Part shown: one piece after another, positions 150 to 9,962 of the stretch | Numbering within the stretch: position 1 is the first letter of the stretch | Layout: each line of letters starts with the position of its first letter | Source of the DNA: Defluviitaleaceae bacterium | Lineage (GTDB): Bacteria; Bacillota_I; Bacilli_A; MOL361; Turicibacteraceae | Length of the DNA: 45,536 bases | Direction of reading: 5' to 3' | Assembly (NCBI GenBank): GCA_009778135.1 | Contig: WRKJ01000098.1 | Coordinates: 1 to 45,536 of the forward strand | Position numbers and translations under genes: made by a program | Notes under the pieces: model-generated | What the model was told of the DNA's origin: nothing | The model's database searches: none | The model's input: the letters and a program-made list of their open reading frames with translations, nothing else

Positions 150-191
150 CTATCGTCTTCCGAATGACCAAAACCAAACAAGAGTACGCAT
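150..191 (-). CDS. Tiny Trp-rich peptide, copy 2 (13 aa)
   Basis: The ORF encodes MRTLVWFWSFGRR and ends in TAG. An excellent ribosome binding site (AAGGAGGTG) stands 7 bases before the ATG. The last eight residues, and V just before the WFW core, match or resemble the upstream copy at 242-295. There is no signal peptide, double-glycine leader or cysteine, so it is not an AgrD-type thiolactone precursor. It lies downstream of, and on the same strand as, an AgrC/AgrA-like two-component system. It could be an unmodified signalling peptide, a membrane-active peptide, or a translated leader; I do not recognise a family. The translation signals are clear; the function is unknown. Confidence 0.6.
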   Translation of the reverse strand: MRTLVWFWSFGRR

Positions 192-241
192 CTTAGTCAC
201 CTCCTTCCTAACGATTCAAACTAAGTTAGACAAGTTTTGGA

Positions 242-295
242 CTATCGTCTTCCGAATGACCAAAACCAAATAACAGTAAACGGGGGCTTCATCAT
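242..295 (-). CDS. Tiny Trp-rich peptide, copy 1 (17 aa)
   Basis: The ORF encodes MMKPPFTVIWFWSFGRR with stop TAG. AGGAGGTG lies 6 bases before the first ATG (295) and 9 before the second (292). It is the first ORF after a near-consensus promoter at 365-393. It shares WFWSFGRR with the copy at 150-191, while its N-terminus differs, so the conserved functional part is probably the C-terminal octapeptide with its aromatic run and Arg-Arg end. The peptide is too short for a lipid-spanning helix with a cleavable signal. It may be the signal or output of the adjacent two-component system. Family unknown. Confidence 0.6.
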   Translation of the reverse strand: MMKPPFTVIWFWSFGRR

Positions 296-364: not shown

Positions 365-393
365 ATTATAAGCTATTTACTGAAAAATTGCAA
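365..393 (-). promoter_or_regulatory. SigA-type promoter of the tiny-peptide transcript
   Basis: On the minus strand TTGCAA (393-388), a 17-base spacer and TATAAT (370-365) form a strong promoter. It lies 70 bases before the first tiny ORF and after the end of the histidine kinase gene, so the peptides have their own transcript. Confidence 0.75.
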
Positions 394-411: not shown

Positions 412-444
412 GGTATAAGATGCAAAAAATGGGTACAAGATGCA
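412..444 (-). promoter_or_regulatory. Direct repeats upstream of the peptide promoter, likely LytTR-regulator site
   Basis: Two near-identical 12-mers (GCATCTTRTACC on the minus strand) start 20 bases apart, about two helical turns, and end about 19 bases upstream of the -35 element. Paired direct repeats at this spacing just upstream of -35 are the usual operator form for AgrA/ComE-type LytTR activators. The response regulator encoded next door carries a LytTR domain. The link is inference. Confidence 0.55.
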
Positions 445-469: not shown

Positions 470-1789
470 TTATCTTTTATAAATGGCGCCATCAAAACTA
501 ATGGTTGCAATAAACTTGTCTTTGTCCGCTTTAAAATCTGTGATACCGCCATACTTTTTAACGATTCTTTTGATGGTTTTTGTTCCGAACCCATGATTGA
601 GTTTGTCTGCTTTTGATGTCATTAAATCTCCATTGGGATACCTGCTTAGTTCTCCTTTAAAATTATTTTCAACTTGAATTCGGAAGCGATTTGTATCTGT
701 TCTGATTGTGACAGTGACATACCCTTTGTCGGTTTCTACTTGTGATGCTGCCTCGAAAGCATTCTTCAGTAAATTGGAAAATAGGTTTGATAAATCTCGT
801 GGCGTTATTGTTAAGTTGCTCGGAATAACGCCTTTCCAATCGGCTTTTAATCCTTTGAATTGGCTGTTTGATTCTAATGCTAATAGATTGGCGTTGATCT
901 CAATGGCACCTGTTTCTGTTCCGGTCGTCTTAACAATCTTGTCTAAATCTCCGACCATTTCTCGGATGGTTTTTAAGGCACAGTCAATGGCATTAGATTT
1001 TAAAAGGGCTTCTAAAGCAATTAATTCATTTTTAATATCATGTCTAAACCGTCGGAGTTCTGAGTCTCTTTCTTGCATTTTTTGATAATGAAATTGTTGC
1101 TGTTGATTGATCTCTAACTGTTGTTGTTCGTTGTTTTTGACCCGTTGAACTTCATTTTTGGTTGCGATTAAATAGACAATGCTATAAATCGCGCCAAAAC
1201 CGCTGATTAAGGCGAAGGAATTGGTGATTCGTCTAAACCAAGTTTGGTTATCAAGTAGAGATAAATTATCAACATAATAGCCAAAAATGCCAATGAAGAA
1301 GACGATAAAAACGAGTTCTGTTTTATTCAAAGTTCGAATATTAAGCTGCAAGCCTAACTTTTTAACGATCAAGTGAAAACTCCAAATCGATAATGTTCCT
1401 AATCCCAATCCAGCTAAACTGTGTATGGGGTTGGTATAACGGTACAGTGTGTCTACGCCGATCAATGTGAACACGAATGTTGTTGTGAATGAACTGATGA
1501 ATGCCATAAGGAGATAAATAAATGGCACCCATAAAAGAATGATTAAACGCTTGGTGGTAATAGCCGAATAGATCATCAAACCATTGATTAAGACCAATGC
1601 AATCAGGGTATCATATGTTCTAACGGGTTGGTACCCATAATGAAATTGTCTGATGATGTCAAAGATGACCAATGCGAGGAAAATGATACAGTTTGCTTTC
1701 TTGATTGATCTCACTTTTTCAAAATTCAAAATGTTGTAAATGATTAAATGCATCATGAGAAATATCAGTAAGTATTGTAGCGCCAGCAT
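470..1789 (-). CDS. AgrC-like sensor histidine kinase (HPK10 type, GHKL ATPase)
   Basis: The 439-residue protein has an N-terminal half with about six hydrophobic helices (to about residue 210) forming a membrane sensor. A Gln-rich coiled segment leads to the phosphorylation motif FRHDIKNEL with His250. The GHKL ATPase follows, with an N-box around Asn339/Asn343 and a short G-box (NHGFGTK, about 399-404). HxxxN motifs of this kind mark the AgrC/ComD class that senses peptides. The start ATG is one base after the regulator stop, with GGGAGG inside the regulator's end, so the two genes are translationally linked. No AgrB or AgrD lies nearby; the only candidate peptides are the tiny ORFs downstream. 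Confidence 0.9.
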   Translation of the reverse strand: MLALQYLLIFLMMHLIIYNILNFEKVRSIKKANCIIFLALVIFDIIRQFHYGYQPVRTYDTLIALVLINGLMIYSAITTKRLIILLWVPFIYLLMAFISSFTTTFVFTLIGVDTLYRYTNPIHSLAGLGLGTLSIWSFHLIVKKLGLQLNIRTLNKTELVFIVFFIGIFGYYVDNLSLLDNQTWFRRITNSFALISGFGAIYSIVYLIATKNEVQRVKNNEQQQLEINQQQQFHYQKMQERDSELRRFRHDIKNELIALEALLKSNAIDCALKTIREMVGDLDKIVKTTGTETGAIEINANLLALESNSQFKGLKADWKGVIPSNLTITPRDLSNLFSNLLKNAFEAASQVETDKGYVTVTIRTDTNRFRIQVENNFKGELSRYPNGDLMTSKADKLNHGFGTKTIKRIVKKYGGITDFKADKDKFIATISFDGAIYKR

Positions 1790-1790
1790 G

Positions 1791-2534
1791 TTATTTTTCC
1801 TCCCCGAAAAGTAAATAGTTTGACCAAGCTTGTTTAAACGTTTTTTTGTAAGTCCTACTTAAATTTAATTCATCGTCATTGCTTAGGTAAACGATATTAT
1901 CTTCAAATTTCTCGACATTTTTTAAGTTGACCAAATTGTTTTTATTGACGTAAACGAATTCGGCTTGAGCTATTTTCTCTAACCAGAATGCCATCGGTTT
2001 TCTCGTGGCGTATTCTTCTCCAGATTCCATGTTGATATAACAGATCTTTCCATCGGCAAATAAACTAACGATTTCGTTGACATATACTTTAGCTTGCGCC
2101 TTATACTGGCTATTTCCGTAATGTGTTATTTCAAGGTACTTCCGGTTATTGATGTTCAAAACCGCACGTGATAACACGGCTTCAAATTTTTCATGAGGAT
2201 CACCTTTTAATAAAAAATCAAAGGGATGCAAGCTGACACTTGCTCGTACGACTTCAAGTGGCTGTTCGATACCTGACAAAAATATGACCAGTGGTTTAGG
2301 ACTTGTTTGATTTAACTTAATCAGTGTCTCTATTCCATTTAAACCAGGCATTTCATAGTCGAGAAAAATAATGTCATGTAACGTACGGCTGTTCACAATT
2401 TCTAAGCCATCAGCATACAGTTTAAATCTGACTTTTATCTGTTGTGGATTTAAAATCAATTCTATTTTTTTCTTGATCTTTTTTCTTACTCTTTGATCAT
2501 CATCAACAATACCAATGATAAGTTCTGGCTTCAT
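1791..2534 (-). CDS. LytTR-family response regulator (AgrA/ComE-like)
   Basis: The 247-residue protein has a CheY-like receiver with acidic residues DDD at 11-13 and phospho-acceptor Asp59 in FLDYEMPG, followed by a LytTR DNA-binding domain from about residue 135 to the end. I start it at the second ATG (2534) because GGGAGGT (2547-2541) directly abuts the first ATG at 2540 but is well spaced for the second. It is first in an operon with the histidine kinase. A promoter with extended -10 TGGTATAAT lies at 2561-2569. Its probable target is the repeat pair at 412-444. No copy of that repeat was seen at its own promoter. Confidence 0.9.
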   Translation of the reverse strand: MKPELIIGIVDDDQRVRKKIKKKIELILNPQQIKVRFKLYADGLEIVNSRTLHDIIFLDYEMPGLNGIETLIKLNQTSPKPLVIFLSGIEQPLEVVRASVSLHPFDFLLKGDPHEKFEAVLSRAVLNINNRKYLEITHYGNSQYKAQAKVYVNEIVSLFADGKICYINMESGEEYATRKPMAFWLEKIAQAEFVYVNKNNLVNLKNVEKFEDNIVYLSNDDELNLSRTYKKTFKQAWSNYLLFGEEK

Positions 2535-2560
2535 TTGCATACCTCCCTAATTTATGGATT

Positions 2561-3264: not shown

Positions 3265-3462
3265 ATGAGCCCAAAAGAGTTACTCTATATCAAAGATGCG
3301 TTGTCACATGCAAAATTTATGAAAGAAAAGTGTACACACGCTGCTAGTCAAGTAACAGATGCAAGTTTGAAACAATTAATTGAGGATGCAGCGGGACGAC
3401 ATAAAAAAATGTTTGACGACATTTATACTGTATTGGCTAGTCATGCAAATGGAGGTGCTTAA
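3265..3462 (+). CDS. Small CotF-type coat-like protein (65 aa)
   Basis: A short helical protein (start MSPKELLYIKDAL) with a pattern resembling half of a CotF/ferritin-like four-helix fold. AAAGGTGG precedes ATG 3265; the in-frame upstream extension has no ribosome binding site. It ends 2 bases before the next CotF-family gene, so the two are co-transcribed and probably partners. Such pairs are known among coat proteins of spore formers. The exact role is not inferable from sequence. Confidence 0.65.
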   Translation: MSPKELLYIKDALSHAKFMKEKCTHAASQVTDASLKQLIEDAAGRHKKMFDDIYTVLASHANGGA

Positions 3463-3464
3463 AG

Positions 3465-3713
3465 ATGAATGATCAATTAATCATGACGAATATTTTATCA
3501 CTTGTTAAAGGTGCGTCTGATATGTATATGCACGGTGCAATTGAAGCAGCTTGTCCAAAAATCAATGCTGCATTTAAACAAGCATTAGCTGCTAATTTAG
3601 CGCTACAACATGAGGTTTTTGATGCAATGAAACAAAAAGGTTGGTATCCAATTCCAGAAGAAACACCAGAGAATATCAATAAAGTTGTTCAAGAATTTGC
3701 AACAGGCTGTTAA
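3465..3713 (+). CDS. CotF-family spore coat protein (82 aa)
   Basis: The sequence pattern (ND-x-LI at the start, a VHGAIE-like MHGAIEAACP motif, then HEVFDAMKQKGWYPIPEE) is typical of the CotF family, in which a C-terminal KGWY motif follows the helices. The protein is cytosolic with no signal peptide, as expected for a coat component made in the mother cell. It overlaps nothing and follows its partner by 2 bases, with ribosome binding site GGAGGTG. Its presence suggests that the organism sporulates or descends from spore formers; the promoter cannot be assigned to a sporulation sigma factor with confidence. Confidence 0.8.
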   Translation: MNDQLIMTNILSLVKGASDMYMHGAIEAACPKINAAFKQALAANLALQHEVFDAMKQKGWYPIPEETPENINKVVQEFATGC

Positions 3714-5820: not shown

Positions 5821-6895
5821 TGTGTTTCACCTCAAACTCTTTCATGAATTCAACTAATTTCAGCACACCTTCTAATGGATGAGGTGTGTAAATACTGGCA
5901 CGCATGCCACCAATGGTTCGATAGCCACCTAAATTGACCAATCCAACTTTTGCTGCTTCATCTACAAACAATTTATCTAACGCATCATCTTTTGTTCCAA
6001 ATGTGACATTTTGTGTCGAACGGGCTTCTTTATCAACAAAGGCATGGAACAATGCTGATTGGTCTAAGAAGTCATAGAGAATCCCTGTTTTATGTGTTTG
6101 GTGTTCTTGGACTTTCGCTAATGTACCAAACGTTTCCTTATACCAACGTAAAACTAACAAGGTTAAATAGACTGCATAAACAGGTGGTGTGTTATACATG
6201 GATTCGTTATTCGCATAAGTTTTATAATTAAGCATCGTTGGTGTTTCTTCTTTTGCATTTCCTATTAAATCGTCACGGACAATGGCAACCGTTAAGCCTG
6301 CAATTCCAAATTGCTTTTGAGCACCTGCATAGATAAGACCATGCTTGCTCACATCGTAAGGTTTTGCTAAAATAGCAGAGGTCATATCTGCAACGATAGG
6401 TGCATCAGTCATCGGTAATGTATGAACAGCTGTTCCATAAATGGTATTATTAGCTGTATAATGATAAAAATCAGCATTTGGTGTGAGCTTCTCGGGTTTG
6501 ATTTCAGGTATATAAGCATAATGACGATCTTTAGAAGAACCGACTACATTTACACTCATGTAGCGACTAACTTCAGCTTTTGCTTTTTCAGACCAATTTC
6601 CTGTTATCAGGAAGTCAGCGACACCGTTTTTGTACAAGTTAAAGGGTAGCATTGAAAATTGGAGTGATGCCCCGCCTTGACAAAAAAGGATTTGATAGTT
6701 TTCAGGAATTTCCATTAATTCACGAAATAAACCTTCTGCTTCTTCAAAAATGCTTCTAACCATTTTTCCACGATGGCTCATTTCCATGATGGACATGCCG
6801 CTACCTTCATAATCAAGCATTTCTGATTGTGCTTTCATTAAGACTGCTTCTGGTAACATTGCAGGACCAGCGCTAAAGTTATAGACTCGCTTCAT
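5813..6895 (-). CDS. serC: Phosphoserine aminotransferase
   Basis: A 360-residue class V aminotransferase that transfers amino from glutamate to 3-phosphohydroxypyruvate. Signatures are the N-terminal NFSAGPAMLPE, the HRGK substrate-binding region and the PLP lysine Lys194 in GAQKQFG. The length matches the family. AAGGAGG lies 10 bases before the ATG. It is first in the operon with serA and the HAD gene, behind a promoter at 6985-7013. Confidence 0.95.
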   Translation of the reverse strand: MKRVYNFSAGPAMLPEAVLMKAQSEMLDYEGSGMSIMEMSHRGKMVRSIFEEAEGLFRELMEIPENYQILFCQGGASLQFSMLPFNLYKNGVADFLITGNWSEKAKAEVSRYMSVNVVGSSKDRHYAYIPEIKPEKLTPNADFYHYTANNTIYGTAVHTLPMTDAPIVADMTSAILAKPYDVSKHGLIYAGAQKQFGIAGLTVAIVRDDLIGNAKEETPTMLNYKTYANNESMYNTPPVYAVYLTLLVLRWYKETFGTLAKVQEHQTHKTGILYDFLDQSALFHAFVDKEARSTQNVTFGTKDDALDKLFVDEAAKVGLVNLGGYRTIGGMRASIYTPHPLEGVLKLVEFMKEFEVKHSV

Positions 6896-9869: not shown

Positions 9870-9962
9870 ATGAGTGTTGCCGAAGCAATTGGATTAATGT
9901 TCGCATTTGGAATGTTTATCCTAGCATTGCTGACGTACATCGATAGAACACGAAAAAAGTAA
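9870..9962 (+). CDS. Holin-like type I toxin, copy 1 (30 aa)
   Basis: A short hydrophobic protein of the putative holin-like / TxpA-BsrG type: MSVAEAIGLMFAFGMF, a membrane helix, then a charged tail TYIDRTRKK. GAAAGGAGG stands 4 bases before the ATG. In this copy an upstream ATG (9825), also with a good AAGGAG, is in frame and would give a 45-residue form. Such toxins insert in the membrane and are held down by an antisense RNA; the matching RNA is read from the opposite strand at 9953-10081. Confidence 0.8.
   Translation: MSVAEAIGLMFAFGMFILALLTYIDRTRKK

Follow-up and report, generated by a model that had tools for sequence, protein, structure and literature searches.

LytTR regulators such as AgrA and ComE are known to bind direct repeats with a spacing of about 21 bp, and in ComQXPA a short Trp-containing pheromone is read by a polytopic kinase. 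The reviews consulted pair peptide-sensing kinases with processed signals, and the peptides that the consulted papers describe are double-glycine, AgrD-derived or Rgg-linked. The leaderless communication peptides of the SIP/RopB and Rgg family are encoded in mature form, are 8–10 residues long and remain unprocessed (PMC13361665). Some AgrC-like kinases lacking AgrB and AgrD have no assigned ligand. An example is C. difficile RgaS, an AgrC-like kinase without an AgrBD of its own; RgaS-RgaR has a regulon of direct-repeat type, with a small ORF and a regulatory RNA among its members, and AgrD1 has been excluded as the signal of RgaS (PMC10602386).

The locus described here lies at the start of a 45 536-nucleotide stretch of DNA from a Defluviitaleaceae bacterium (the window, meaning the whole stretch analysed), which is one end of contig C98 in an assembly of 2.32 Mb. 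A first-pass annotation had reported two micro-ORFs between positions 150 and 295, each with a good Shine–Dalgarno (SD) sequence, beside an AgrC/AgrA-like system without local AgrB or AgrD. Both ORFs are present at exactly those positions on the minus strand, both SDs are as strong as had been claimed, and a GHKL kinase and a regulator with Response_reg and LytTR domains lie upstream of the pair:

150..191, minus strand: micro-ORF 2 (ORF2), MRTLVWFWSFGRR, 13 codons, tandem copy with another N-terminus
199..206, minus strand: SD of ORF2, AAGGAGGT, 8-base match, 7-base spacer
242..295 including stop, minus strand: micro-ORF 1 (ORF1), MMKPPFTVIWFWSFGRR, 17 codons
302..309, minus strand: SD of ORF1, AGGAGGTG, 8-base match, 6-base spacer
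365..370, minus strand: -10 element TATAAT, 17-base spacer from the -35 element
388..393, minus strand: -35 element TTGCAA; the second half-site starts 31 bases before it
412..444, minus strand: direct repeat TGCATCTTGTACC-N7-TGCATCTTATACC (full TGCATCTTGTACCCATTTTTTGCATCTTATACC), offset 20, between kinase and ORF1, putative response-regulator site
470..1789, minus strand: AgrC-like sensor kinase (Pfam HATPase_c_5 1.5e-21)
1791..2540, minus strand: response regulator of the AgrA/ComE type, receiver plus LytTR DNA-binding domain (Pfam Response_reg 6e-13, LytTR 1e-11)

The pairing of AgrC-like kinase and LytTR regulator is that of agr. The kinase consists of a multi-helix N-terminal part of about 205 residues, hydrophobic by its hydropathy segments, a phospho-acceptor region (FRHDIKN) and a GHKL ATPase; the AlphaFold model is middling (pLDDT 61) and served for the helices only, and a profile built from five relatives matched the S. 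aureus AgrC module 6e52 at 5e-9. No AgrB or AgrD is found near the micro-ORFs on the stretch present, which ends with the contig 150 bp past ORF2, and to that extent this part of the annotation is borne out. Nor was either seen at the loci on contig C39 of the same genome and on C26 and C17 of a congener; genome-wide, AgrB occurs on contigs C99 and C77 only. The window ORFs carry no leader and would be mature as encoded. Their products have no Cys, a single Ser within WSFGRR and no AgrD scaffold, and do not conform to the cyclic thiolactone or lactone peptides of agr. Neither a double-glycine precursor nor its ABC exporter was found, the latter (Peptidase_C39) in a search of the whole genome, which is 97% complete. 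No cytosolic Rgg (HTH plus TPR) adjoins the ORFs: the neighbours are the kinase, the regulator, Coat_F proteins and metabolic genes. Two small tandem proteins are encoded at 3265-3713 on the plus strand, the second a clear Coat_F member and the first under the family cut-off. A 30-aa putative holin-like toxin of the Hol_Tox family (Pfam 9e-14) lies at 9870-9962 on the plus strand; a holin-like identity for the micro-ORFs themselves was dropped, the real Hol_Tox being located there. LytTR domains number 13 in G000 and 14 in the congener G001 (2.1–2.3 Mb), against 1–6 in other members of the family: regulators of this type are strongly expanded in the genus.

Compared with agr-type systems (AgrBDCA of S. 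aureus and its relatives Fsr and VirSR), the locus has in common a polytopic GHKL kinase whose homology to AgrC is detectable, a LytTR regulator, a direct-repeat promoter, an autoinduction layout and possibly a regulated RNA, but it lacks AgrB and AgrD, and the peptide is a linear leaderless ORF of 13–23 residues behind the kinase. ComCDE, Blp and plantaricin-type systems likewise combine a kinase and a LytTR regulator with direct repeats about 20–21 bp apart upstream of the pheromone promoter, an arrangement also present here, but neither the double-glycine leader nor the exporter has a counterpart in this genome. The likeness to SIP/RopB and Rgg systems is the signal encoded in leaderless form; their peptides, however, are read by a cytosolic Rgg, whereas the partner here would be a membrane kinase. 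ComQXPA offers the combination of a short Trp-containing peptide and a polytopic kinase, but at our loci there is no pre-peptide and no ComQ-like prenyltransferase was recognised. RgaS-RgaR resembles the locus in its AgrC-like kinase without an AgrBD and its direct-repeat regulon with small ORF and RNA, but its kinase and regulator genes lie apart. We therefore class the locus as peptide/two-component quorum sensing and not as agr or ComCDE, whose defining processing parts were looked for and not found. A text search of the literature gave no match to the window peptide, and one on AgrC-associated leaderless peptides in Lactobacillus was equally empty. Searches of an open-access library brought up no account of leaderless peptides that pair with AgrC-like kinases, which does not prove that none exists.

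For the direct repeat upstream of ORF1, only 1 of 1000 dinucleotide shuffles gave one equally good. With up to 3 mismatches allowed, the genome contains 276 copies of the half-site by itself; we calculate that chance would place about 0.02 pairs of them at a distance of exactly +20, yet three were observed besides the window, on contigs C43, C49 and C63. A search with the combined pattern (3 mismatches allowed) returned these four sites and no other in the genome, with 0 in the control, but as the pattern was built from those four it is informative only on the absence of a fifth. The distance from half-site to -35 element and the 17-base spacer are identical in all four promoters, and a search of viral contigs did not find the repeat. 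Since repeats of this spacing are known LytTR sites, the LytTR regulator beside the kinase is the likely reader, and the promoter of the micro-ORFs looks self-inducing. A different LytTR two-component system is encoded near the C63 target, and its regulator may read the repeat instead, which counts against the pheromone reading.

The other targets are diverse. The C63 promoter precedes a gene for a secreted CAP-domain/InlB-repeat protein. On C49, genes for a 722-aa protein and a 141-aa protein are followed by DnaJ, FHA, PP2C-like proteins and one that is VgrG-like (Pfam Phage_GPD 5.5e-9, GPD/base_V; PDB T6SS VgrG 1.6e-5), a composition suggesting a contractile-injection-like cluster. This cluster (locus L139, 4262-16088) thus stands behind a window-type repeat promoter, with the 722-aa protein as the sheath-like and the 141-aa protein as the tube-like component. 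The label ‘sheath’ rests on the neighbours (VgrG-like GPD/base_V, FHA, PP2C), because AlphaFold (pLDDT 30 from a two-row alignment) and a profile search of the PDB, which gave no match, lent it no support. A single further genome of the class (G139) has a syntenic cluster, its first protein being 53% identical. Between the first two genes of the C49 cluster there are three micro-ORFs of 24, 24 and 14 codons, with their starts at 6494, 6601 and 6728.

The C43 promoter faces a stretch of about 190 nt that contains no SD-led ORF, terminates in an inverted repeat and is possibly a regulatory, probably non-coding RNA; its folding energy is ordinary (z -0.7), and Rfam gave no match of any credibility, either for this region or for the window start. 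A rival explanation for the micro-ORFs is a non-coding RNA under the regulator in which they are fortuitous; in its favour, one repeat promoter of the four does drive a probably non-coding stretch. This explanation has to contend with SDs that in most loci are strong and ideally spaced, and with a dN/dS of about 0.14–0.18 in two ortholog pairs (see below), and we hold it to be very improbable. Seven leaderless small hydrophobic or Trp-rich ORFs of 30–50 aa, with SDs and on both strands, flank the same promoter (L141, 10187-11622); none has a Pfam match.

The micro-ORFs of the window stand out from their background. Among 51 SD-preceded intergenic ORFs of 8–30 codons in 275 kb of two genomes, Trp is absent from 33, and few combine an 8-base SD with at least two Trp; ORF1, ORF2 and one of the leaderless C43 peptides are among these. 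The annotation had gone further and read selection on the C-terminal octapeptide WFWSFGRR from its presence in both copies. Of the 63 bases that run from TTTGG to where the repeat unit ends, 59 are identical between the two; about 33 of the aligned positions are non-coding, after the stop, and carry all 4 differences. By this measure ORF1 and ORF2 are a tandem duplication, which would give the same identity, so that the shared C-terminus alone is no evidence of selection. With non-coding tails nearly as alike and so small a sample, we dropped the argument from the two copies, although its conclusion may itself hold. The octapeptide as such is not conserved: across genomes of the family, the DNA pattern of the window peptide matched the window alone, and paralogues carry IWWIWSIRR, RRWWFRLLYASM and SWWWIAWL instead.

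What recurs is the arrangement. In the same genome, a kinase on contig C39 that is 38% identical to the window kinase is followed by an offset-20 repeat and MPVTGTIWWIWSIRR. In the congener, micro-ORFs follow two of three kinases (MRARFWIEPRRWWFRLLYASM on C26 and MIHQRSWWWIAWL on C17), the one on C17 with an offset-21 repeat upstream. The repeats are specific to each system, and equally good ones arose in 4 of 1000 dinucleotide shuffles for contig C39 and in 0 of 1000 for C17; the SDs of these two ORFs are weaker than those of the window. Several observations count against the pheromone reading: the third congener kinase, on C37, has no such micro-ORF, the offset-20 repeats at C26 and C37 are not significant, and the repeat motif of contig C39 has a single site in its genome. 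The set examined contained only eight genomes of the host's order. Behind the peptides the genes differ from locus to locus (GH11-like, MFS, secreted protein/VanZ), and the peptide is therefore the constant element of these paralogous loci. Short Trp-rich ORFs could also encode leader peptides of the attenuator type, in which the Trp codons would sense the tryptophan supply. But the downstream genes vary and are mostly not recognisable Trp genes, the link to kinase and repeat promoter is constant and there is no Rfam match; trp attenuation seemed to us so remote that, once considered, it was dropped.

A broader view came from kinase homologues picked by kinase similarity alone, irrespective of peptides, in named and class-wide genomes, mostly of Lachnospiraceae. 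An offset-20 repeat lies downstream of 17% of 123 non-redundant kinases, compared with about 2% for most other offsets and with 4% after control gene ends. Strict-SD ORFs of 10–30 codons, taken without Trp selection, were counted 19 times behind 118 kinases and 21 times behind 573 control genes (p=2e-5), Trp made up 10.2% of their residues versus 2.6% (p=1.6e-5), and repeat plus ORF with at least two Trp followed 10 of 123 kinases versus 3 of 578 controls (p=4e-6), p-values that are somewhat optimistic since some of the loci are related to one another. The offset-20 segment precedes 15 of the 19 kinase-linked ORFs, and any other offset at most 5. The recurring layout is thus an offset-20 repeat, an SD and a Trp-rich ORF of 15–23 codons, exemplified by MNLCFIQFWKWLFGK, MLLSKDFWFWNWFRKFWK, MLLISGWSWWADFWRKLFG, MPYGLNWDWLIGLITGNGGKEEE and MVYTLLREIWRLIYGKR, by MMYYWTGLWRIWPFK from a Roseburia MAG and by MGYFAMALMPVWMKWLKNFFG from Petralouisia muris (Lachnospiraceae). 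At L101 (6866) and L110 (6828) the repeat lies behind the micro-ORF and not before it, so the layout varies. A further candidate, L164, was rejected because it lies inside a response-regulator gene. About 100 of the 123 HPK10-type kinases have no such ORF, which also counts against the pheromone reading. A lack of conservation beside related kinases had been named as what would refute the first-pass annotation; the arrangement recurs at paralogous kinases and, independently, in Lachnospiraceae, so that the annotation was not refuted, and its suggestion of a possible class of unprocessed signal peptide is supported.

The ratio of synonymous to nonsynonymous changes was another check that it had proposed: two ortholog pairs have pN/pS of 0.14 and 0.18 (dN/dS about 0.14–0.18; p=0.005 and 5e-6), so that their micro-ORFs are coding and under purifying selection. 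In four orthologous Lachnospiraceae loci from four species, the N-terminus is constant (residues 1-5 80–100% identical) and the C-terminal part hypervariable (residues 6-15 10–30%), while the kinases of the same loci are 74–83% identical in the sensor part and 79–91% in the kinase part. Pheromone/receptor pairs such as AgrD/AgrC diverge this way, and the four-locus divergence fits pheromone–receptor diversification.

The same data bear on the possibility that the two-component system merely induces leaderless antimicrobial or surfactant peptides, akin to leaderless bacteriocins or phenol-soluble modulins, the real signal being something else. The peptides are indeed rich in Trp and hydrophobic residues and often cationic, there are two tandem copies in the window, and one regulon site adjoins the cluster of seven hydrophobic ORFs on C43. 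Known leaderless bacteriocins have 30–60 residues, however, and these peptides only 13–23; some are strongly acidic (e.g. MPYGIDWEWLIGLITGNGGKEEE); in most loci a kinase has a single ORF, placed alike irrespective of the genes that follow; and the C-termini diverge beside conserved kinases. No immunity or export gene common to the examined loci was recognised. We regard this explanation as unlikely. Alternatively, the peptides might never leave the cell and act on the membrane kinase from inside, as feedback small proteins of the MgrB/SafA kind do. This would agree with the lack of leader and exporter at every locus, with hydrophobic peptides able to sit in the membrane and with their co-location and co-divergence with the kinase; but most, at 13–19 aa with interrupting charges, are too short for a full transmembrane helix, and promoter architecture and hypervariable part resemble those of pheromone systems, so that internal feedback seems to us rather improbable.

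We consider it probable that the locus is a peptide autoinduction (quorum-sensing) circuit, in which leaderless pheromones are sensed by AgrC-like kinases, with no AgrB/AgrD or double-glycine exporter at the locus. The pheromone would be translated in near-mature form, free of signal sequence, double-glycine leader and AgrD scaffold. The phosphorylated LytTR regulator would bind the 20-bp-offset direct repeat and turn on the promoter from which the tandem Trp-rich micro-ORFs are expressed. Their peptides would leave through a putative exporter and then, by way of the membrane domain of the adjacent AgrC-like kinase, activate that kinase, so that a positive loop is closed. Three more promoters may be switched on by this regulator, those of the contractile-injection-like cluster, the CAP/InlB-repeat protein and the short RNA. 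At the level of sequence, this proposal is supported by micro-ORFs with strong SDs, the promoter with its repeat, the four-site regulon, the recurrence and the purifying selection in two pairs. The peptide is the presumed ligand of the kinase beside it, a link drawn from position and co-diversification. Export, which we infer, is the weakest point of the pheromone account; no exporter or maturation gene is common to the loci, which counts against it, but leaderless secretion is possible in principle, since the leaderless communication peptides of Rgg systems are secreted (PMC13361665).

Whether this extends to a widespread and undescribed form of quorum sensing in gut Bacillota seems to us an evenly balanced matter: it would employ linear leaderless Trp-rich peptides of 13–23 residues, directly behind AgrC-like kinases without AgrBD, with offset-20 repeat promoters of their own and fast-diverging C-termini, and would control, for example, a contractile injection apparatus. 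Petralouisia muris, the source of MGYFAMALMPVWMKWLKNFFG, is listed as a strain, so a culture probably exists. If the wider reading holds, every locus offers a receptor, a promoter and a peptide for synthesis, all ready for immediate testing. The passage of leaderless peptides across the membrane would then become a question, and a contractile-injection-like cluster would be tied to cell–cell signalling. Leaderless peptides would then be the ligands of many ‘orphan’ AgrC-like kinases, and much of the communication of gut Lachnospiraceae and Turicibacteraceae would have been invisible so far, being encoded in tiny ORFs below the annotation cut-off.
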